Shown here one piece after another: positions 27,704-40,440 of a stretch of DNA of 64,000 bases. Under the pieces are notes generated by a model. It was given only the letters and a program-made list of their open reading frames with translations. It ran no database searches and was not told where the DNA came from. Made by a program: the position numbers and the translations under genes. Source of the DNA: Pseudomonadota bacterium (GTDB taxonomy: Bacteria > Pseudomonadota > Gammaproteobacteria > Burkholderiales > JAKAFK01); the NCBI GenBank assembly GCA_021788645.1, contig JAJYKK010000009.1:1-64000 (forward strand), written 5' to 3'. Within the stretch, counting starts at the first letter, position 1, and each line of letters begins with the position of its first letter.

Positions 27704-29083
27704 TCAGGCGCTGCGCTCGGGCCCCGCCTTGAGCACCCGGGAGGCCCCCTGAAAGTCTACCGTGTGCAGGATGACCGGGCGCCGCCAGATGCGGTGAATG
27801 TAGTCGAGCACTCTCACGGCGCGGTCCAGGTCGAGCCCCCGGCCATCCGTGCGGTGCGCATGCGTGAGCACCAGGGTGCCGTCGGTCTTCATCTCGCTCA
27901 CGCTCACGCGGGGGGCGCCATAGTTGAATTTGGGCGCCAACAGGCGCTCGTGCACGCTTTCGATGTCCTTCGAGACGATTTCGATGCGACCGCGACGCTC
28001 CGCCTCGTACACAAACAGGTGGAGCGTCTCGGCGAGGTTCGCGTCCAGGTAATTGCGGACGAAGCCGAAGTCATCCTCCTGGTCGCGGATCTTGCGCGCC
28101 CCCTCCACGCCCTGGGTTTCGATGATGCGCTCCCATATGGAAAAGCCCAGATGGTAGGGATTGGTCTGGAGCGCGAGGCGCCGTTCGCCCGCGAATGGGC
28201 TCACGACGTCGGAGTGCGACTTGATCGCGTCGAGATAGACGGATTCCGGCAGAAACGTCGCCTCCCGCAGGAGGCGGGCGTGCCAATACGCCGCCCAGCC
28301 CTCGTTCATGATCTGGCAGGCAAAAAGCGGGTAGAAGTAGAATGACTCTTCCCGCACGGCGAGAAAAATGTCGCGCTCCCAGTCCTCGAGTTCCGGCGCG
28401 TATTGGGCGATGAACCACAACAGGTCATTCTCCGGTCGTGCCGGGACACGCGCGCGCTGTTCGACGACCGGCCTGCTTGGGGCCACCGGCTCGCCGGGCA
28501 AGTCGCGAAAGCGCGAGGAAAACGCGTCGACGGCCCGTTGGGGCCCCTCTGGCACACGCAGAGGATAACGCGCCCGCCCCATCGGCTGGTTCACGTCGAT
28601 GTGCTGCTCCAGCGCGAGCGCGCAGTCGAGCACGCGCTCGACGGCACCTTGGCCGAACGTGACGATCGCACGCTCGATGCGGCGCGCGCGCGTGGCCGCC
28701 TGCTCGACCATGTGCGCCCCGGCTTCTTGACGGCTGCGCCGGAAGAGCGCGTTGTGCTTGGCAAAGTCCGCGTGCCCCAGCACGTGCGCCGTCACCAGAG
28801 AATTCTCCGCCACGCTGTTGGTGTCCGCCAGGTAGGCACGGTTCGGATCGCCGGGAAACACGACCTCAAAGATCTGCGAATTGCCCATGCGGGTCTGCAC
28901 CAGCTGGTAGATGTAGCGCACGCCGAAGGACCAGTGCGGCATGCGCACAGGCAGCCCGTAGATGGAGACTTCGAGCATGAAGGCCGGCGGCACCAGCTCG
29001 AAGTCGACGGGGTCGTAGTCCAGGCCCAGGCTGCCTGCCAACGCCTCGAAGCGTGCCGCATAGTGCGCGAGCAGTTCAGCCAT
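27704..29083 (-). CDS. SpoVR/YcgB-family protein
   Basis: A 459-residue SpoVR-like protein with conserved DFELVPPAFMLEVSIYGLP, the NSLVTAHVLGHADF segment, ARPENDLLWFIAQYAPELEDWERDI and IMNEGWAAYWH. SpoVR proteins are co-inherited with PrkA and YeaH in Proteobacteria and act in stationary-phase or stress responses; the biochemical role is unknown. ATG 29083 overlaps the end of yeaH by 8 bases. It is the last gene of prkA-yeaH-spoVR and converges on glnE. Confidence 0.92.
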   Translation of the reverse strand: MAELLAHYAARFEALAGSLGLDYDPVDFELVPPAFMLEVSIYGLPVRMPHWSFGVRYIYQLVQTRMGNSQIFEVVFPGDPNRAYLADTNSVAENSLVTAHVLGHADFAKHNALFRRSRQEAGAHMVEQAATRARRIERAIVTFGQGAVERVLDCALALEQHIDVNQPMGRARYPLRVPEGPQRAVDAFSSRFRDLPGEPVAPSRPVVEQRARVPARPENDLLWFIAQYAPELEDWERDIFLAVREESFYFYPLFACQIMNEGWAAYWHARLLREATFLPESVYLDAIKSHSDVVSPFAGERRLALQTNPYHLGFSIWERIIETQGVEGARKIRDQEDDFGFVRNYLDANLAETLHLFVYEAERRGRIEIVSKDIESVHERLLAPKFNYGAPRVSVSEMKTDGTLVLTHAHRTDGRGLDLDRAVRVLDYIHRIWRRPVILHTVDFQGASRVLKAGPERSA

Positions 29084-30230
29084 GGGTGCCTTCCTCGGTG
29101 CGCGGGCGCTCACGAAAAAAGGAGCGTATGGCACCCCATACGTCGTCGGCGCGATTGAGCGGATAGCTTGCCGCGGGGTGGCCGGCGTACTCCAGCCCGG
29201 CAAAGAGCCCGCCCATCTCGGTGTCGGGGAAATGCCGCAGGGCATCGGAAGCGGTCTCCACGTACCCGATGAAGCTCAGGCCCGGCACAAGCTCATCGAG
29301 CGCCCGTTCCGCGGCGTGATGGTCCTCGGTGAAGTTGTCGCCGTCGGAGGCATAGAACAGGTAGCAATTGAAGCGCGAGGGGCGAAAGCGCTCGTGCAAG
29401 AGGTCCATCGCGTGCACGAACGCCGTCGACGCGACGGTTCCCCCCTCCCCTTTGACCTGGAAAAATTCGTCCTCTGCGAACTCCCATGACCGTACGGTGT
29501 GCGCGATGAACACGGTCTCGACCCGCGCGTATTGTCGGCGAATGCCTTGCAGCGCCCAGAAGAAGAAGGTCTTCGCCAGCCGCCGCTGCGACTCTTCCAT
29601 GCTGGCCGACACATCCAGGACGAAGAAGACGGCCGCCGCGCTGATCGGGCGTGGGCGCCTGGCGAGCTGACGAAAGCGCAGATCCCCATCCACGAACGCC
29701 GGCCCCGCCGGCCCGATGGCCCGCCGCTTGACGGCCTCCTTGAGTGTCCGGCGCCGGTCCAGCCGTGCGCGCGCGCCGCGCCGGTCCCATCCTTCCCTCA
29801 CCCAATCGTCGCCTTCCATCGCGGGCGACAGCTTGGGCTTGAGGTGCGGGAGCCTGAACTCCTCCCACACCCAGTCGACGATGTCGTCCATCTTGAGCTC
29901 GAGCAGGAAGCTCAGTTCGCCTTCGCCGTGGCCTGCAGCCTTCGCCGCGCCCTCGCGCCCGCTGTCGACCGGCGTCAACACGTCGCCGGTCTGCCCTTCG
30001 CCTTGCCCCACCCCCATGCGGGTGTCCGAATCCTGTAGCCGGAATCTCGCGTGCTCAAGGAAACGGACAGGCACCTGCACTGCCCGGTTGTCCGGCCGCG
30101 AGAGCAAATCCGCGCCGGCGATGAGGTCGGGCAACTCCTGTCTCACCGCATCGCGTATCTTCTCGTTGTGCCGCAGCCAATCACGCGCCCCGCGAGAAAA
30201 CAGGTCATACCATTGCCTCGCTTCAGACAT
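29076..30230 (-). CDS. yeaH: YeaH/YhbH-family protein (DUF444)
   Basis: 384 residues of DUF444, with a von Willebrand A-like metal site FVLDVSASMEESQ in the middle and YASDGDNFTEDHH later. In E. coli YeaH pairs with the kinase YeaG (PrkA) in nitrogen-starvation survival. Several starts are possible. GTG 30284 overlaps the prkA stop; ATG 30245 and ATG 30230 lie inside. I use 30230 because GTGAGAA sits at a normal distance and the residues before it are not family-like. Middle gene of the operon. Confidence 0.88.
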   Translation of the reverse strand: MSEARQWYDLFSRGARDWLRHNEKIRDAVRQELPDLIAGADLLSRPDNRAVQVPVRFLEHARFRLQDSDTRMGVGQGEGQTGDVLTPVDSGREGAAKAAGHGEGELSFLLELKMDDIVDWVWEEFRLPHLKPKLSPAMEGDDWVREGWDRRGARARLDRRRTLKEAVKRRAIGPAGPAFVDGDLRFRQLARRPRPISAAAVFFVLDVSASMEESQRRLAKTFFFWALQGIRRQYARVETVFIAHTVRSWEFAEDEFFQVKGEGGTVASTAFVHAMDLLHERFRPSRFNCYLFYASDGDNFTEDHHAAERALDELVPGLSFIGYVETASDALRHFPDTEMGGLFAGLEYAGHPAASYPLNRADDVWGAIRSFFRERPRTEEGTHG

Positions 30231-30280
30231 GTCGGTTCTCACCATCCCTGACCACCGCCGCAGCGCCCCGGGAGGGCCGT

Positions 30281-32254
30281 TCACTCCTGCGACAGCAACG
30301 TGGTCACGTAGTTGAGCGCCTCCTGGGCGCTATGGGGATCGTAGCCGTATTCCTCCACCAGCCGGTGCGCGACCGCCGAGACTTTCTTTCGGGTTTCCTC
30401 GTCGGGTCGCGATGCCGAGGTGACCAGGCGCAGCACATCCCGCCGTTCCTCGAAAAGATAAAGCTCGATCGCCTCGCGCAGCCTGGCATGGCTGCCCAGC
30501 GTGAACTTCTCGCCCCGCTTATAGGCGCCCATGGCCTTGCGCACCACCTCCTGGCGAAAGGTCGTCTTTCCGGATTCGGAAATGCTGAGCTTTTCCTCGA
30601 CCGACCGCAGAAAGCGTTCGTCGGGCTGGCGAAGCTCGCCGGTCATGGGATCTTCGATCTGGCGGTTATCGAGCGTCGCCTCCACCTCGTCCAGATACTT
30701 GTCGAGCAAGGTTTGCGCCTCGCCTTCGAACGACGCGAACAGCGCCTTGTGGACATCTTCCTTGACCCACCGGTTGTAGAAATCCTTGCGCGCCGCCACG
30801 AGAAAATCCACCCAGGAGCGCTTCTGCTTGGCGTCCATGCGCGCGTCGGACTCGATGGCATCCTTCAGCGCCAGGAGTACCTCCATGCTGGTGAGGCTGT
30901 GGACGTTGCTCTTGGAAATCGCCCCGGACAACGCATTGATGACAAACCGCGGGCTGACGCCGGACAGACCTTCCTCGGGTGATTCCCCTCGTATGCGCTC
31001 GGCGTCCATGGCGCTGAAGCCCTCAAGATCCTCGCCGGCATACAGGCGAAGCTTCTTGGGCAAGTCCAGGTCGCGGCGCTCGGAGGCGTGCAGCCGCGTG
31101 AGGATGGCGAATACCGCGGCCACGTGCAGGGCATGGGGATCAAGGTGCACCGCCCGGAAGGCCGGCGCCGCCGAAATCAATTTCTTGTAGATGCGGGCCT
31201 CTTCGCGATAGGAGAGGGTATAGGGCACCTGAATGATCACCATTCGGTCGAGGAGCGCCTCGTTTTCCGCCTCCTGCAGGAACTTCCGGAACTCCGCGAG
31301 GTTGGTGTGGGCCAGGATGGTCTCGTCCAGATAGATCAAGGGAAAACGGGAAACCTTGACGTTCTTCTCCTGGGTGAGCGTGAGCAGCAGGTACAGGAAT
31401 TCGCGCTTGACCTTGAGAATCTCGATCATCTCGAGCAGACCGCGGCTTGCCGCATAGACCGCCCCCGACCAGGACCAGGCACGCGGATCGCCCTCATCGC
31501 CGTATACCGCAACCTTGGACAAGTCCACGGAGCCCACCAGATCCGCGATGTCCGCCGTGGTCGGGTCGTGCGGCGCATAGGTTCCCACGCCGACGCGGCC
31601 GGCTTCGGAAATGAAGATCCGTTCCACCGGGCACTTGAGAAAGTCGCCATTGAACTCGTCTTCCAGGCGTGCTCGGCACAAGGGGCACAGCTCGCCCGTG
31701 ACGTCCACGCCGTACGTCTCGCGAAAATTCGCGCGCAGCGTATGCGGTACCAGATGGAGCGGCGATTCATGCACCGGGCAGCCCTTCAAGGCATAGCGGG
31801 CGCCCGCATCGGTATGGCTGTATTCCTCGAGCCCTCGCTTGAGGAGAATCACCAGGGTCGACTTGCCTCCGGAGGGAGGACCGAGCAGCAACAGAAGCCG
31901 GCGCCCGACCTCGGAGCCCGCGGCGGCGGTCTTGAAATAGTCGACGACGCGCTCGAGGGCCTGGTCGACACCAAACAAATCGTGCCGGAAGAGTCCACTG
32001 GAGCTTGCGCGTCCACCTTCCGACGGGGTTTCGCCTTCGGCGAGCCGATTCCCCGTCCAGCGCAGCATGTCCCAGACATACTCGTGGCTGTTTCGCGTGA
32101 TGTTGCGCGGATCCTGCGGCAGCACGTGTTCCACGAACTCGCTGAACGTACCCTCCCAGTGGCATGTCCGATGGCGCTGCGTGAAGGCCGCCAGGGCCCG
32201 CAGAAACTTCGCATTCGATTGCGCGCCGTCGGTCGTTTCGGGCTCATTGTTCAT
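30281..32254 (-). CDS. prkA: PrkA-family serine protein kinase (YeaG)
   Basis: 657 residues. The N-terminal PrkA AAA domain has Walker A GPPSGGKST at 125-133, followed by the zinc-like CPLCRARLEDEF segment and FPLIYLDETILAHTNLAEF. The C-terminal part is the PrkA kinase region. The family acts in stationary-phase and nitrogen-stress adaptation in enterics. ATG 32254 has GGGGGATG-type pairing upstream. It heads prkA-yeaH-spoVR. The long upstream gap holds two palindromes that might serve its control. Confidence 0.92.
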   Translation of the reverse strand: MNNEPETTDGAQSNAKFLRALAAFTQRHRTCHWEGTFSEFVEHVLPQDPRNITRNSHEYVWDMLRWTGNRLAEGETPSEGGRASSSGLFRHDLFGVDQALERVVDYFKTAAAGSEVGRRLLLLLGPPSGGKSTLVILLKRGLEEYSHTDAGARYALKGCPVHESPLHLVPHTLRANFRETYGVDVTGELCPLCRARLEDEFNGDFLKCPVERIFISEAGRVGVGTYAPHDPTTADIADLVGSVDLSKVAVYGDEGDPRAWSWSGAVYAASRGLLEMIEILKVKREFLYLLLTLTQEKNVKVSRFPLIYLDETILAHTNLAEFRKFLQEAENEALLDRMVIIQVPYTLSYREEARIYKKLISAAPAFRAVHLDPHALHVAAVFAILTRLHASERRDLDLPKKLRLYAGEDLEGFSAMDAERIRGESPEEGLSGVSPRFVINALSGAISKSNVHSLTSMEVLLALKDAIESDARMDAKQKRSWVDFLVAARKDFYNRWVKEDVHKALFASFEGEAQTLLDKYLDEVEATLDNRQIEDPMTGELRQPDERFLRSVEEKLSISESGKTTFRQEVVRKAMGAYKRGEKFTLGSHARLREAIELYLFEERRDVLRLVTSASRPDEETRKKVSAVAHRLVEEYGYDPHSAQEALNYVTTLLSQE

Positions 32255-33792: not shown

Positions 33793-33999
33793 ATGACTGC
33801 AGACACGCAAGACCGCGCCGAGCGGCAAATCGAGGTCACCCCTGACGATCTGCCCCTGCATTGCCCGATGACCGGACAAACGCAGTGGAGCGCCCATCCA
33901 CGGGTCTTCCTGCCGATCGAGGCCACCGGCGTGGCGCAATGCCCCTATTGCGGCACCGTCTACCGGCTGAAAGGCGGCGCCCGCCCGGGCTCCCATTGA
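33793..33999 (+). CDS. Small zinc-finger protein (zf-CHCC type)
   Basis: 68 residues. LHCPMTGQTQWSAHPRVFLP and AQCPYCGTVYRL give a C...H...CxxC zinc site, as in the zf-CHCC family related to the mitochondrial complex I 13-kDa subunit. The gene sits 13 bases after ilvE and just before waaF, a conserved neighbourhood. ATG 33793 opens a short polar leader. Function in bacteria is unknown. Confidence 0.82.
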   Translation: MTADTQDRAERQIEVTPDDLPLHCPMTGQTQWSAHPRVFLPIEATGVAQCPYCGTVYRLKGGARPGSH

Positions 34000-34043
34000 A
34001 GCCGGCGCCGGCCGCGCTTTCCCGCGCCCCCGAAGCGAACGCC

Positions 34044-35069
34044 ATGCGCCGGATCCTCATCGTCGCGCCCAGTTGGGTCGGCGACACGGTCATGGCGCAG
34101 CCGCTTTTCGCCCGCCTGCATGAGCGCCATCGGCAGCTCGCGCTCGACGTGCTGGCACCGGAACGGGCCGCCGCCTTGCTGGCGCACATGCCCGAAGTCG
34201 CGGACGTCCTGCCCCACACCTTCGCGCACGGCGAGCTCAGGCTCGGAGATCGCTACCGCCTCGCACGCGCGATCCGCGCCCGCGCTTACGATCAGGCCAT
34301 CGTCCTCCCCAATTCCCTGAAGTCGGCACTCATTCCCTTCCTCGCGCGCATCCCGCTGCGAACCGGTTTCGTGGGCGAGATGCGACGCGGTCTCGTCAAC
34401 GACGCCCGGACGCTGGATCCGCGGGCCTATCCTTTGATGGTCGAGCGCTATGCGCTCCTCGGCGAGGCGGCCGGGCTGCCCTTGACGCGGCCGCTTGCCC
34501 CCCCATGCCTGCGCGTCGATCCTCAGGCGAGCCTCGCCATCCTGGAGCGGCTCGGCGTGTCGGCGTCCCAGCCTGCGGCCGCTTTGTGCGTCGGTGCCGA
34601 ATACGGCCCCGCCAAGCGCTGGCCCGCCGGCCGCTTTGCCGAGCTCGCCCAGGCGCTGCTTCGGCGAGGGCACGCCGTCTGGCTCATCGGTTCGCCGAAA
34701 GACGCGCCGGTCGGTGCCGAGATTGCGCAGGCGGCCGGCCAACGCGTGGTCAACCTGTGCGGGCGAACCGACCTCGAGGAGGCCATAGGACTGTTGAGCC
34801 ATGCCGCCTTCGTGGTCACCAACGACTCCGGCCTCATGCACGTCGCCGCCGCCCTCGGCAAGCCGCTCGTGGCGCTCTACGGCTCCTCGACGCCCGCCTT
34901 CACCCCTCCCCTTTCGCCGACCGCACGGGTGCTGAGCCTCAATCTCCCGTGCAGCCCCTGCTTCAAGCGCGAGTGTCCCCTGGGCCATTACGGCTGCCTC
35001 GTCGGCTTGTCCGCCGAGCGCGTGCTGCACGCCCTGCCGCCGGAACTTTTGGGGCCGGCTGCCCCGTGA
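34044..35069 (+). CDS. waaF: ADP-heptose:LPS heptosyltransferase II
   Basis: Adds the second heptose to the inner core of lipopolysaccharide on the cytoplasmic face of the inner membrane. The 341-residue family 9 glycosyltransferase starts with MRRILIVAPSWVGDTVMAQP and has the C-terminal sugar-nucleotide region VVTNDSGLMHVAAALGKPLVALYGSSTP. The cysteine-rich tail LPCSPCFKRECPLGHYGCL is typical of WaaF. ATG 34044 is chosen at the motif. TTG 33996 is a possible longer start but overlaps the zinc-finger gene. Confidence 0.93.
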   Translation: MRRILIVAPSWVGDTVMAQPLFARLHERHRQLALDVLAPERAAALLAHMPEVADVLPHTFAHGELRLGDRYRLARAIRARAYDQAIVLPNSLKSALIPFLARIPLRTGFVGEMRRGLVNDARTLDPRAYPLMVERYALLGEAAGLPLTRPLAPPCLRVDPQASLAILERLGVSASQPAAALCVGAEYGPAKRWPAGRFAELAQALLRRGHAVWLIGSPKDAPVGAEIAQAAGQRVVNLCGRTDLEEAIGLLSHAAFVVTNDSGLMHVAAALGKPLVALYGSSTPAFTPPLSPTARVLSLNLPCSPCFKRECPLGHYGCLVGLSAERVLHALPPELLGPAAP

Positions 35070-35227: not shown

Positions 35228-38200
35228 ATGCCCGACCGTCTCCGCGAATGGCCGCCCATCGCAGGCCGATTCCTGTCTTATTTCGCGCTCTGCGCGGCCC
35301 TCGTTTCATTTACGCTCCTGTGCGCCAACTATCCCGATCTTCTGGCCGCTGGCGAGCGGCTCAAGCAGCAGGCCGCAGGCCGCGCAAACCGCGCCGCTCA
35401 GCGCCTCACCTCCGACCTGACCGAACTGGGCGGCGGGCTGCGCGCGGTCGCAGACAACCGCGAACTGAAGGCCGATTGGGCCAGCCGGCGATGGGCGCAG
35501 GTAGCGCAGCGGCTTCGGCGGGCCGCGGGTGGACAGCTGAACATCGACCGCCTATGGTATCTCCCCGCTGCCGGAAGGGAAGGGTTCGAGTTCGTCTGGC
35601 GGGGCGGCCACGCACCGTCCCGGCGCACCGCGGCAGCCGGCGTGCGACGCCCCCGCCCGACTCCGGCACAGGCTCGGGCGCTGCGCCGAGGGTGGGCGAT
35701 CGTCGGGATGGACATGCGCTGTCCGAGCCCATCGGCCTGCCACCCGGTCCTCTGGGGCGAAGTGGAGGCGTTCGATGCGCGCGGCGGGCCCCAGGGCCTT
35801 CTTCTTGCGGAGCGGCCGGCACCTGAAGTGATCGGCTTCGCGCGGTCCCTGGACGGCGCGCTACGCCGGGCGCGCGATGCGCCGGGTCGCATGCTGGTGG
35901 CTGCCCTCGGCACGGCAAGGCCGAGCACAGCTCGCGCCGACGCCTTGCGGCGCACCCCTGTGCCGGGCTGGCTCGCCTGGGCGGCGATCGCGCAACCCGA
36001 TGGCCCGAAAGTGCTGGACGACCAGCCCATGGCCGTCATCAGCTGGATTGCGCTGCCCACGCCGTGGGCCGCCGCTCTGGGGAGAATGCGCGCGCACCCG
36101 GGTGGCAGCACCTCCGCGCTCGTGCTGTTCACCCTCGCAGCCCTCGTCAGCCTCGCGCTGGCATGGATGCGCACCGTCCACATACGCGGGACGCAGGCCT
36201 TGCGCCGGAGCCAAACGGAGCTGGCCAACGCGCAGGCGCTGGCCCATGTAGGGAGTTGGACTTGGACCGTGGCCAGCGGCAAAGTCGAAGGCTCTGCAGA
36301 GTTTTGTCGTCTATTCGGCTTGAGCCACGCCCCGGCCGCCCTCGATCTGGCAGTCTTGCTGGCGCGCGTGCACCCGGACGACCAAAGCCGCATCGCCCAG
36401 CAGCTCCAGGCCGTGCAAGCCGACGGAACGCCCTATACCACGGAATTTCGCATCGTCACGCCCAACCATGTGCGGCGCATGGTCTCGGCCCAGGGCGAGA
36501 TCGCGACGAGAAACCGTGACGGCAGCATACGCCAGATGATCGGCACGGTGCACGACATCACGGCGCGTCACGAAGCCGAAGAGGCCGTGCGCGCCAGCGA
36601 GGAGGCATACCGCCTCCTGGTCGAGCAGGCCGCCGACGGAATCGTCATCGCCGACCCGGACGGCATCGTCATCGATGCCAATACCGCCGCCTGCAGAATG
36701 CTCGGCATGACGCACGAGGGGCTGCTCGGCCAAAGCATCGCGCACCTCGTGCCGGCCGACGATGTGGCGCGCGTGATGGCGGTGCGAGCGTTCCTCGCGG
36801 CTCATCCGGGGCGCACCCAGGTCGAGGAATGGTCGCTCATCACGAAGGACGGCGGGCACCTGCCGGTCGAAGTGAGCGCCAAGATCCTGCCCGACGGGCG
36901 CTGGCAGGCGATCGTGCGCGACATCACCGAGCGCAAGCATACCGAAGGCAAGCTGCGCCAAGCGGCAACGGTGTTCGACAACACCAACGACGGGATCATC
37001 ATCGCCGACAGCGCGGGCCGCATCATCGCCGTCAACCGCGCCTTCAGCGACATCACCGGCTTCGCCGCGGAAGAGGTTATCGCCCAGAATCCCCGCCTGC
37101 TGGGATCCGGCCATCACGATGAGACCTTCTATCGCGAGATGTGGACGATGCTCAAGAGCACCGGACAATGGCGCGGCGAGATCTGGGATCGCCGCAAGGA
37201 CGGAACGGTTTTTCCCGCATGGGAAAGCATCAGCGCCGTGCGCGATGCGGGCGGGCAGCTCACGCACTACGTGGCGGTGTTCTCGGACATCAGCGTCATC
37301 AAGGAAGCCGAGGCCAAGCTCACCGCATTGGTGCATCACGACTCGCTCACCGGCTTGCCCAACCGCCTGCTCTTCAGCGCGCGTCTCGAGCAGGCCATGG
37401 CTCGCGCCGACCGCCACCAGCAGAAAGTCGCGCTCATGTTCATCGACCTCGATCGCTTCAAACGGATCAACGACACCATGGGGCACGCCGCAGGCGATGA
37501 ACTGCTCCGGACGATCGCCAGCCGGCTGCGCGAATGCGTGCGCAAGGAAGACACAGTCGCGCGCCTCGGCGGCGACGAATTCACGGTGCTCGTTGAGGAA
37601 ATCCGCGATGGCGCAGACGCCGCGTCTCTCGCCGACAAGATCATCCTCGCCGCCGGCCAACCGCTGGCCATCGACGGCAAGGACATCACGACATCGGCCA
37701 GCATCGGCATCGCCTTGTATCCCGAAGATGCGCCGAACGCCGAAGACCTGGTGCGCGCGGCGGACGCCGCCATGTACCGCGCCAAGGAGCGCGGGCGCGG
37801 CAACTATCAGTTCTATACCTCGGCACTGACCCGGCGCGCACTCCATCATCTATCGGTCGAGCAGGGACTGCGCCGCGCCCTCGAACGCGGGGAATTCGTC
37901 CTGTACTACCAGCCTCAGGTCGCGCTCGCCGACGAAACCATCGTCGGCGCCGAGGCATTGCTCCGGTGGCGCCATCCGCAGATCGGCCTCATGCTGCCCG
38001 AGCAGTTCATCCCCATCGCGGACGACGCGGGGCTCATCAACGCGCTGGGCCGATGGGCGCTCGCGGCCGCATGCGCCCAGATGAATGCGTGGCACCTGGC
38101 CGGGCTCCGCCCGATCCGCGTGGGCGTGAACCTCTCCGGGCGCCAGATCATGCAACCCGACTTTGCCGCCCGCATCGAGCAGATGCTCGCCGCCGCAGGG

Positions 38201-38632
38201 CCGCTTGGCGACGGCTTCGAGCTCGAACTCGAGATCACGGAAGGCGTTCGACAAATTGCCGAGGTCGGCGGCGATGGCTTGGCGGCCCTGAAGGGCCTGG
38301 GCGTTTCGCTCGCGATCGACGACTTCGGGACGTGCGATTGCTCGTTGAGCGACCTGCAGCAGATGCCCGTCAGCCGCCTCAAGATCGACCGCTCATTCAT
38401 TCATGGGATCCCCGGCGACGCCAACGAGCGCTCGCTCACCCGCGCGATCATAGCGCTCGGACACAGTCTCGACCTGCGCGTCGTGGCGGCGGGGATCGAA
38501 ACGCGCGAGCAGGCGCGCTTCCTGCAGCGCTTGGGCTGCGACGAGGGGCAGGGCTATCTCTTCGGCAAGGCGATTGCGGCGGATGCAATGGCCAGGCGGC
38601 TGGCGCAAGACAGCGGCACCGCGCCTGCCTAG
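35228..38632 (+). CDS. Membrane PAS-GGDEF-EAL cyclic-di-GMP protein
   Basis: 1134 residues. The layout is membrane segment, periplasmic sensor of about 240 residues, second membrane segment near 295-315, three PAS domains, GGDEF (781-785) and EAL (909-911). The diguanylate cyclase half looks intact, with GGDEF and the RKED inhibitory site just upstream. In the EAL half the metal ligands remain (E909, EITEG, D1031-D1032, K1052). The catalytic-base glutamate of the AEGVET motif is A1088 (VVAAGIET), and the loop DDFGTGYSSL reads DDFGTCDCSL. So it should make c-di-GMP, while phosphodiesterase activity is probably lost. ATG 35228 has AGGAGG upstream. Confidence 0.9.
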   Translation: MPDRLREWPPIAGRFLSYFALCAALVSFTLLCANYPDLLAAGERLKQQAAGRANRAAQRLTSDLTELGGGLRAVADNRELKADWASRRWAQVAQRLRRAAGGQLNIDRLWYLPAAGREGFEFVWRGGHAPSRRTAAAGVRRPRPTPAQARALRRGWAIVGMDMRCPSPSACHPVLWGEVEAFDARGGPQGLLLAERPAPEVIGFARSLDGALRRARDAPGRMLVAALGTARPSTARADALRRTPVPGWLAWAAIAQPDGPKVLDDQPMAVISWIALPTPWAAALGRMRAHPGGSTSALVLFTLAALVSLALAWMRTVHIRGTQALRRSQTELANAQALAHVGSWTWTVASGKVEGSAEFCRLFGLSHAPAALDLAVLLARVHPDDQSRIAQQLQAVQADGTPYTTEFRIVTPNHVRRMVSAQGEIATRNRDGSIRQMIGTVHDITARHEAEEAVRASEEAYRLLVEQAADGIVIADPDGIVIDANTAACRMLGMTHEGLLGQSIAHLVPADDVARVMAVRAFLAAHPGRTQVEEWSLITKDGGHLPVEVSAKILPDGRWQAIVRDITERKHTEGKLRQAATVFDNTNDGIIIADSAGRIIAVNRAFSDITGFAAEEVIAQNPRLLGSGHHDETFYREMWTMLKSTGQWRGEIWDRRKDGTVFPAWESISAVRDAGGQLTHYVAVFSDISVIKEAEAKLTALVHHDSLTGLPNRLLFSARLEQAMARADRHQQKVALMFIDLDRFKRINDTMGHAAGDELLRTIASRLRECVRKEDTVARLGGDEFTVLVEEIRDGADAASLADKIILAAGQPLAIDGKDITTSASIGIALYPEDAPNAEDLVRAADAAMYRAKERGRGNYQFYTSALTRRALHHLSVEQGLRRALERGEFVLYYQPQVALADETIVGAEALLRWRHPQIGLMLPEQFIPIADDAGLINALGRWALAAACAQMNAWHLAGLRPIRVGVNLSGRQIMQPDFAARIEQMLAAAGPLGDGFELELEITEGVRQIAEVGGDGLAALKGLGVSLAIDDFGTCDCSLSDLQQMPVSRLKIDRSFIHGIPGDANERSLTRAIIALGHSLDLRVVAAGIETREQARFLQRLGCDEGQGYLFGKAIAADAMARRLAQDSGTAPA

Positions 38633-38636
38633 AACG

Positions 38637-40019
38637 TCAGACCGTGCGCGAGTAGCGCGGCTTCTGCGCGCTTTCCGCCTTGAGGTAGGCATCGAACGGC
38701 ATGGCGATGTTGCGCAGGAAGATGCGCCCGAGCTCGGTCACGCGGATCGACTCGGCTGTGAGCAGAACCAGCCCATCCTCCTCCAGGGTGCCGAGGTCAT
38801 TCAGGGCATCGCCGAAGTAGGCGTCAACGTCGACGGCCCATTCGCGGCCGAACGCCGCCTTGTCGAGGGCCAGGTCGCACATGATCCGGGTAATGGCATC
38901 GCGCCGAATTTTGTCGTCCCGCGTCACGCGCAAGCCGCGCTCGGTGGCGAGACGCCCCTCCCCGATCAGCCGCTGGTAGTCGTTCAGTTTCTTGGCATTT
39001 TGCACATACACATCGTCCGTCTGGCTGATTGCCGACACGCCGAAGGCATAGATGTCGCAATGCCGGTGCGTCGTATAGCCCTGGAAATTGCGCCAGAGCG
39101 TGCCGCGTCGCTGCGCGACGACCAGCTCATCCTCGGCACGCGCGAAGTGGTCCATGCCGATGTACACATAGCCCGCCTGCGAGAGGCGATCGAGGATCAA
39201 CTTCTGCAGCGCGATGCGGGTCTCAAAATTGGGCAGATCGGACTGGACAATCAGGGTCTGATGCTTCTTCAGCCATGGCACATGGGCATAGCCGAAGATC
39301 GCCAGCCGGTCGGGGCCCAGCGCCAGAATCTGATCCAGGGTCCGGGTGAAGCTCTCCAGGGTCTGATGCGGCAGCCCCACCATGAGGTCCATGTTGATGC
39401 TGCGGAAGCCCGCCTCGCGCATCCAGCCGTACACCTTTTCGATGAGCGCCGCGGGCTGCACGCGGTTGACCGCCTGCTGCACCCGCGGGTCCAGATCCTG
39501 AACGCCCAGACTCAGTCGATTGAACCCGGCCGCGGCGAGCGCCTCGATGTGCCCTCGGGTCAGCTCGCGCGGGTCGACCTCGCACCCGACTTCGGCATCC
39601 GCCGCAACGGTGAAGGCATCGCGCGTCCAACGCGCGAGCCGCTCGATGTCCGCCGGCCGCAGATAGGTGGGCGTGCCTCCCCCCCAATGAAGCTGCCGCA
39701 CCAACCGATCCTTCGCCACGCCGTCGGCGACGGCCTGAATCTCGTGGGACAGGCACTGCAGATACGGCTCGACCCGCTCGTAGCGCCGGGTCGCGACCAT
39801 ATTGCAGCCGCAGTAGTAGCACAGCGTGTCGCAAAAGGGGATGTGCACATAAAGCGACAAGTCGCGGCCGAGCGCCTGGCTGGTCCGCATCTCCTCGCGC
39901 CAGGCCGCTTCTCCAAAGGCCTCACTGAAATAGGGCGCGGTCGGATAGGAGGTATAACGCGGGCCTGGGCGGCTGTACTTCTCGAGCAAGGCGGGATCGA
40001 TGTCCACGGTGAGCCCCAT
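38637..40019 (-). CDS. hemN: Oxygen-independent coproporphyrinogen III dehydrogenase
   Basis: A radical-SAM enzyme that decarboxylates two propionates to form protoporphyrinogen IX in haem synthesis without oxygen. The 460-residue protein has the cluster motif CDTLCYYCGC, LHWGGGTPTYL, RLSLGVQDLD and the HemN-specific ISRP-like N-terminus SRPGPRYTSYPTAPYF. ATG 40019 gives the E. coli-like N-terminus. TATAAT at 40041-40036 (minus) lies 16 bases upstream, implying a very short leader. It converges on the GGDEF-EAL gene with 4 bases between stops. Confidence 0.95.
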   Translation of the reverse strand: MGLTVDIDPALLEKYSRPGPRYTSYPTAPYFSEAFGEAAWREEMRTSQALGRDLSLYVHIPFCDTLCYYCGCNMVATRRYERVEPYLQCLSHEIQAVADGVAKDRLVRQLHWGGGTPTYLRPADIERLARWTRDAFTVAADAEVGCEVDPRELTRGHIEALAAAGFNRLSLGVQDLDPRVQQAVNRVQPAALIEKVYGWMREAGFRSINMDLMVGLPHQTLESFTRTLDQILALGPDRLAIFGYAHVPWLKKHQTLIVQSDLPNFETRIALQKLILDRLSQAGYVYIGMDHFARAEDELVVAQRRGTLWRNFQGYTTHRHCDIYAFGVSAISQTDDVYVQNAKKLNDYQRLIGEGRLATERGLRVTRDDKIRRDAITRIMCDLALDKAAFGREWAVDVDAYFGDALNDLGTLEEDGLVLLTAESIRVTELGRIFLRNIAMPFDAYLKAESAQKPRYSRTV

Positions 40020-40035
40020 CAGAATATGGGAGTTG

Positions 40036-40041
40036 ATTATA
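40036..40041 (-). promoter_or_regulatory. Candidate -10 box of hemN
   Basis: A perfect TATAAT on the minus strand, 16 bases before the hemN ATG. No good -35 hexamer is seen at 16-18 bases. An ATCAA half-site (FNR/Anr-like) directly follows the box, but the other half of the dyad is missing. Confidence 0.4.
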
Positions 40042-40055
40042 GTCCGTTTTGCCAT

Positions 40056-40440
40056 GGGCTGCGAGGCATCCCGCGCCCGAAAGGCCCTGCCGCCGCCAGG
40101 GCGGTTGGGCGGCTCACCGCCTGTCCAGACCGCATGTCGCGCTGGAAGGCGCGCATCCCTTCGCGGCGGGCACGGGAACCGGGCGGCAGAACGCCGCGCC
40201 GGGTCGCGATGGTTATATACTGATGGGTAAGGCAAACGCCAGCCGACCGGGCCCCCTGCCGCAGGCAGCGGCGCGGGACTCGGTCGACCGCAGGGCTTTG
40301 CGCCATGCGGCGAGCCGCCGAGACGGCATTTCCATTAACCGAGATAGCATTTTTCACAAGGAAGCGGGAAATCGGGCTTGTCTCGCAAGCCGAGCTATCC
40401 GGCCTCGCGAGTCACGGCGAGGCTTCCCGCACACGCCCGG
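40056..40440. other. Intergenic stretch between hemN and the SnoaL-like gene
   Basis: The gap between the divergent genes holds the hemN promoter and no recognisable gene. A TATACT hexamer at 40215-40220 (plus) lacks a convincing -35. Open frames across it are short and basic. Confidence 0.4.

Follow-up and report, generated by a model that had tools for sequence, protein, structure and literature searches.

Tandem GGDEF-EAL proteins are hard to interpret from sequence, as either half may be dead. This question was raised by a PAS-GGDEF-EAL gene in the window (the whole stretch of 64,000 nucleotides analysed here), whose product P0001 had been described in an earlier note as a probable cyclase with an EAL domain that binds c-di-GMP without hydrolysing it. 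The reading favoured here, to which a probability of about 0.72 was assigned, is that P0001 would be a diguanylate cyclase with a membrane-anchored sensor and an EAL domain unable to hydrolyse c-di-GMP, and that its genus has shifted this locus toward pure synthesis. Degenerate EAL domains on cyclases are already well known and P0001 belongs to that kind; its distinguishing points are a near-surgical loss of the catalytic base with the binding residues kept, a Cys-Asp-Cys loop 6 and a sister species in which the EAL domain is absent.

The features of the gene and of its surroundings are collected in Table 1. Both signatures of the cyclase half, stated to be intact in the earlier note, were read in P0001: the GGDEF motif starts at 37568 and the RxxD inhibitory site, RKED, at 37541, five residues ahead of the GGDEF A-site. 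The stretch RKEDTVARLGGDEF is identical in P0001 and in its counterpart from the congeneric genome G001. The best NCBIfam match of P0001 was NF045675, the DibA phosphodiesterase family (residues 562-1121), at 700.6 bits against an equivalog cut-off of 980; below this cut-off and with the base lost, P0001 was considered a non-member.

Table 1. Coordinates of the gene for P0001, its domains and its neighbours in the window
Feature	Positions	Strand	Basis and remarks
PAS-GGDEF-EAL gene, protein P0001 (1134 aa)	35228..38632	+	Open frame; Pfam; two-TM sensor, three PAS, GGDEF, EAL
Predicted TM segment 1 (residues 13-34)	35264..35329	+	Hydropathy >1.6 over 19 residues; equivalent position in congener
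Predicted TM segment 2 (residues 292-317)	36101..36178	+	Hydropathy
Three PAS folds (best-matching residues 355-441, 466-570, 587-689)	36290..37294	+	Pfam PAS_3, PAS_4, PAS_9
GGDEF domain (residues 703-858)	37334..37801	+	Pfam, whole-protein E 7.5e-54; dN/dS ~0.26 vs congener
EAL domain (residues 881-1114)	37868..38569	+	Pfam E 6.2e-70; model pLDDT 92.5; best solved fold TBD1265 EAL
DDFGTCDCS (residues 1031-1039), metal Asp pair retained, loop 6 changed	38318..38344	+	Alignment of EAL rows
Codon 1088 GCG, Ala at general-base Glu position	38489..38491	+	Alignment of EAL rows
Segment absent from congener orthologue L032	37838..38616	+	Two-locus alignment; boundaries approximate (several bases)
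Upstream neighbour, glycosyltransferase family 9 (heptosyltransferase)	33861..35069	+	Pfam; congener equivalent L032 ORF 4286-5311
Downstream convergent neighbour, radical SAM / HemN_C protein	38637..40235	-	Pfam; congener equivalent L032 ORF 1-1479

The presumed periplasmic sensor (residues 35-291, positions 35330-36100) lies between the two predicted transmembrane segments and matched neither a Pfam nor an NCBIfam family. A scan of the named genomes with this region gave a single weak match (29% across 55 residues), and full-length matches to P0001 were found, among the matches listed, only in the two genomes of its family. The sensor part (residues 1-330) was the least conserved between the two species, with 63% identity and a dN/dS of 0.40. 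Its cysteines Cys165 and Cys171 are conserved in both. The genome itself (G000, a 3.06 Mb draft) displayed 34 EAL matches, 33 of them above the Pfam cut-off, which for a genome of this small size amounts to a dense c-di-GMP network. Elsewhere in the window, genes for SpoVR, a DUF444/VWA protein and the PrkA serine kinase stand in a row on the minus strand (27704-32254); such a trio is widespread and little understood.

The catalytic base of EAL phosphodiesterases is a glutamate, identified as E352 in RocR and E703 in TBD1265 (reported in PMC12943098). As the earlier note had proposed, P0001 displayed alanine there: codon 1088 is GCG and lies exactly 36 residues past K1052 (38381), and VVAAGIET aligned with VIAEGVES of MorA, VIAEGVET of PA0575 and VVAEGIET of TBD1265 in an alignment to solved structures. 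Loop 6, also correctly read before as GTCDCS in place of GTGYSS, is part of DDFGTCDCS (residues 1031-1039, from 38318; loop DNA TGCGATTGC at 38333). FGTCDCSL stands opposite FGTGYSSL of the same three proteins, with the changes G1036C, Y1037D and S1038C relative to consensus, and the DFG(T/A)GYSS loop of active EAL phosphodiesterases is thus replaced in P0001 by DFGTCDCS. The coordinates given earlier proved exact: DDFGTCDCS starts with base 38318 and VVAAGIE ends with base 38500. An 8-mer of the changed loop, GCGATTGC (38334-38341), has one further occurrence in the gene, 236 bases downstream (38570-38577); copying within the gene could be the source of the three adjacent changed codons, but an 8-mer match may be due to chance.

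The remainder of the active site was preserved. Fifteen positions were considered, namely those of a list published for CdgB (in PMC9683572) and the base. All 14 metal or substrate positions (E, N, E, D, D, K, D, E, Q, YQP, R and the loop 6 Glu) matched the consensus, leaving the base as the sole exception and upholding the claim that the other metal ligands remain. The EXLXR motif is kept as well (EALLR, residues 909-913) while the base is gone, a combination expected of degenerate EAL receptors of the FimX/LapD kind.

To appreciate how rare these changes are, 168 EAL rows were gathered; removal of 17 as duplicates or contained fragments left 151 unique rows including P0001. The 150 others comprised 29 of the 33 other matches from the own genome, 15 of 28 from congener G001 and 106 rows from further genomes of the order. 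They were the best matches to P0001 plus the matches from its own genome and its congener, hence a non-random sample, and since rows had to match at E <= 1e-15, grossly decayed EAL domains were under-represented. A letter was present at the base column in 149 of these 150 rows (the own-genome fragment L029 was gapped) and it was Glu in every case, for which reason A1088 was rejected as a common variation. Column 1036 displayed 148 Gly and one Ala, and column 1038 140 Ser and nine Ala; Asp was encountered at column 1037 in none of the other rows, and the CDC loop in none of the 150. Consensus residues occupied all 15 positions in 99 of the 150 rows, and 51 departed somewhere; none of these 51 with a letter at the base had it replaced.

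Departures were further counted on the 149 near-full rows out of 151. Among 16 columns with at least 97% conservation, P0001 departed at two (G1036 and E1088), and two of the 148 others departed at two or more. With 29 columns conserved at 93% and 56 columns conserved at 80%, 14 and 25 of the 148 other rows, respectively, departed as often as P0001, and its overall identity to the consensus was ordinary (43 of 149 rows were lower). At the strictest columns the damage thus centres on the base and loop 6, and only there does this focus stand out.

At the DNA level, the pattern for DDFGTCDC was found in one of 399 genomes of the order, that of the window, and the pattern for VVAAG[IVM]E in 102 of 399. 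The flanks of 30 matches to the latter were examined, the window's own aside, and only one lay within an EAL domain. This locus (L097, in genome G263 of another family of the order, and outside the comparison sample) is a minus-strand GGDEF-EAL frame that also displays Ala at the base (VVAAGVET); its loop 6 is reduced to DDFSASPPAM and its GGDEF motif altered to AGEEF. As judged from its residues, base and loop 6 are there lost together a second time. A search of viral contigs with the EAL domain alone revealed no relative.

An AlphaFold2 model of the EAL domain, for which 40 of 81 sequences (the window and 80 loci) were used, reached a mean pLDDT of 92.5 and a pTM of 0.90; the ten-residue block at model residues 161-170, which holds the greater part of loop 6, averaged 85. 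The nearest solved chains were those of the TBD1265 EAL domain, 2r6o (apo) and 3n3t (with c-di-GMP), with Z-scores of 34.5 and 34.2, rmsd values of 1.6 and 1.8 over 253 and 258 residues, and 44-45% identity. The modelled fold is that of an EAL domain, and such a fold alone says nothing on activity or binding.

Published exchanges of the same glutamate bear directly on the consequence of its loss. In TBD1265, the closest solved fold (from Thiobacillus denitrificans), E703A abolishes phosphodiesterase activity and mutation of E706 is without effect, as reported in PMC12943098; P0001 has by nature the Ala that was there introduced. In the PAS-GGDEF-EAL protein ZMO1055, E536A of the EGVE motif abolished de-flocculation with signs of more cellulose, an outcome read by the authors as cyclase activity, and EAL domains without conservation of this Glu are classed as phosphodiesterase inactive in the same source (PMC12900916). 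P0001 would therefore be in effect a natural E-to-A mutant, with loop 6 altered as well. Since published E-to-A changes abolish phosphodiesterase activity or the corresponding phenotype, the cyclase with a dead phosphodiesterase put forward in the earlier note appears well supported: this holds for the predicted loss of hydrolysis, and by analogy with these proteins a net cyclase function of P0001 is likely.

Two explanations would spare the phosphodiesterase. The EAL domain might still hydrolyse c-di-GMP by an altered chemistry, for instance if Asp1037 in the changed loop or a bound hydroxide stood in for Glu, and the kept metal ligands (at the positions checked) and the new acidic residue would be in agreement with this; the fate of the E-to-A variants of TBD1265 and ZMO1055 argues against it, as does the degenerate loop 6 reported to explain the inactive EAL domain of a Komagataeibacter cyclase (PMC10333796), and it was considered very improbable. 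An error of base-calling or assembly, making an intact enzyme seem degenerate, deserved even less credit. The genome is indeed a draft of 107 contigs, 92.9% complete, and a single base change turns GAG into GCG; against this, three adjacent loop 6 codons differ in addition to the base codon, without any frameshift, and the congener independently lacks the EAL domain.

This congener was the only source of an orthologue. A search with the whole protein against 60 genomes (its own and 59 relatives, two genomes of the family included) gave matches in 58, and among the matches listed only G001 matched P0001 from residue 1. The orthologous locus, L032, displayed 77% identity over 870 residues and the same neighbours as the window gene, a heptosyltransferase and a radical SAM/HemN gene. 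Its frame stops at a TAG directly after the GGDEF domain, and the convergent HemN gene ends about 30 bases further. Relative to the window, about 0.78 kb are missing, the whole EAL domain included. L032 is not situated at a contig end, as it has full 1500-base flanks on both sides. Its 3' tail, GCGCCTGC[A/C]TAG, still aligns with the window, and the last codons of the window frame, GCGCCTGCCTAG, have a counterpart GCGCCTGCATAG in L032 that now lies beyond the shortened reading frame. The earlier note had looked to orthologues for a verdict on A1088, according to whether all of them keep Glu; as the sole orthologue found has no EAL domain, that comparison is inapplicable to it. A moved or duplicated EAL domain in G001 was also rejected, the best match (49%) being a paralogue that was matched equally well in both genomes.

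As G001 appears to have lost the domain through a stop and a deletion and its former 3' tail is still recognisable, the EAL domain is probably ancestral; its loss in G001 by these two events, in either order, is the simplest reading of the two loci. Recent capture of an EAL domain by the window gene was judged unlikely, since the GGDEF and EAL distances correlate and a coding 3' tail survives in the congener. The two sets of distances to 141 other GGDEF-EAL proteins gave a Spearman coefficient of 0.62 (129 of 142 proteins were lower); the ten nearest proteins by GGDEF differed from the ten nearest by EAL. As far as the alignment indicates, G001 may have deleted an already dead EAL domain, or both lineages may have silenced it separately. 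The domain is in any event probably dispensable in the congener. A precedent for the truncated form is YciR, which when cut just past GGDEF is an apparent cyclase according to PMC10333796 and PMC10459773.

Between the two species, dN/dS came to about 0.29 over the shared part of the gene, 0.19 in the PAS folds and about 0.26 in GGDEF, against 0.40 in the sensor, from which it follows that both species keep a constrained cyclase half. With dS (0.45 in the shared part, 0.29 in GGDEF) taken as neutral, each lineage would have experienced about 0.15-0.22 neutral substitutions per site. This scale bears on the main rival of the favoured reading, according to which the EAL domain is a vestige released from selection recently, its substitutions being early decay toward a deletion of the congener type, without any role in ligand binding. 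The congener manages without the domain, and the base and three adjacent loop 6 residues are gone in P0001. Furthermore, the EAL domain was slightly more divergent than GGDEF predicts (residual z 1.13, with a larger value in 19 of 141 proteins), an excess that fits relaxed selection as well. Neutral drift was simulated in 4000 runs starting from the present EAL sequence, indels excluded, and a run counted as intact if it had acquired no stop and had changed no more than three of 28 near-invariant columns. The domain was left so intact in 29% of runs at 0.05 substitutions per site, which a short period of decay would allow, and in 4.0% at 0.10; at 0.15 and 0.20 the probability fell to 0.0057 and 0.0005, which makes neutrality over the entire time since the split unlikely. 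Given these low values, the EAL domain was probably under constraint for much of that time, and may have been released from selection recently. The changes at the strictest columns are moreover concentrated on the catalytic machinery, with the checked binding residues remaining, and this again argues against mere decay. A vestige was held to be a minority possibility, the foremost among the rivals. Loss of the domain in the orthologue speaks for dispensability no less than for a receptor role.

The Komagataeibacter (Acetobacter) xylinus cyclase mentioned above is presumably AxDGC2. The cyclase described in PMC10333796 resembles P0001 in being a GGDEF-EAL protein, with an EAL domain that lacks activity because of a degenerate loop 6; in P0001, by comparison, the catalytic base is lacking as well, loop 6 reads CDC and the congener dropped the EAL domain. 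SSFG_02181 from Streptomyces ghanaensis shares the TM-PAS-GGDEF order with a degenerate EAL domain and makes c-di-GMP in vitro (reported in PMC7374567). Its degeneration is of another type: Glu and Leu of the EAL motif became Cys and Gln, whereas P0001 keeps the EAL motif and metal ligands and loses the base. The receptors FimX and LapD carry a non- or barely hydrolysing EAL domain on a GGDEF-EAL protein, as is predicted for P0001, and their folds are common with its model (FimX 3hv8, Z 28.9; LapD 3pju, Z 26.3). FimX is described as keeping four of ten catalytic residues, with a degenerate GGDEF domain (PMC3527489); in P0001, in contrast, GGDEF is intact and only the base and loop 6 are lost, and a receptor role of its EAL domain would be a putative one, read from residues.

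The favoured reading can be laid out as a succession of steps. The ancestor would have been a PAS-GGDEF-EAL protein with a working phosphodiesterase, and the genus would have moved the locus toward synthesis, by substitution in the species of the window and by stop and deletion in the congener. The remaining EAL domain may still serve the GGDEF domain as a folded partner, most likely as a c-di-GMP-binding or dimer-contact module, which is the weakest step. With the checked binding residues kept, c-di-GMP binding by the domain is plausible. Loop 6, however, reportedly takes part in the binding of ligand or substrate and of metal, and in dimerisation (PMC10333796; PMC12943098), and its change at three adjacent residues may abolish binding. 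A more speculative possibility, given very little weight, is that the new Cys-Asp-Cys created a thiol or metal site beside the former active site, by which the dead EAL domain would sense redox state or a transition metal and signal to the cyclase; the congener, without this gain, would have discarded the domain.

A review of c-di-GMP evolution describes vertically inherited cases at the same locus as a chance to study the drivers of activity loss (PMC10333796). The two sister species, with their genes at one chromosomal place, would represent two stages or two routes in the loss of the phosphodiesterase half, and constitute a neat experiment of nature, not a new mechanism.
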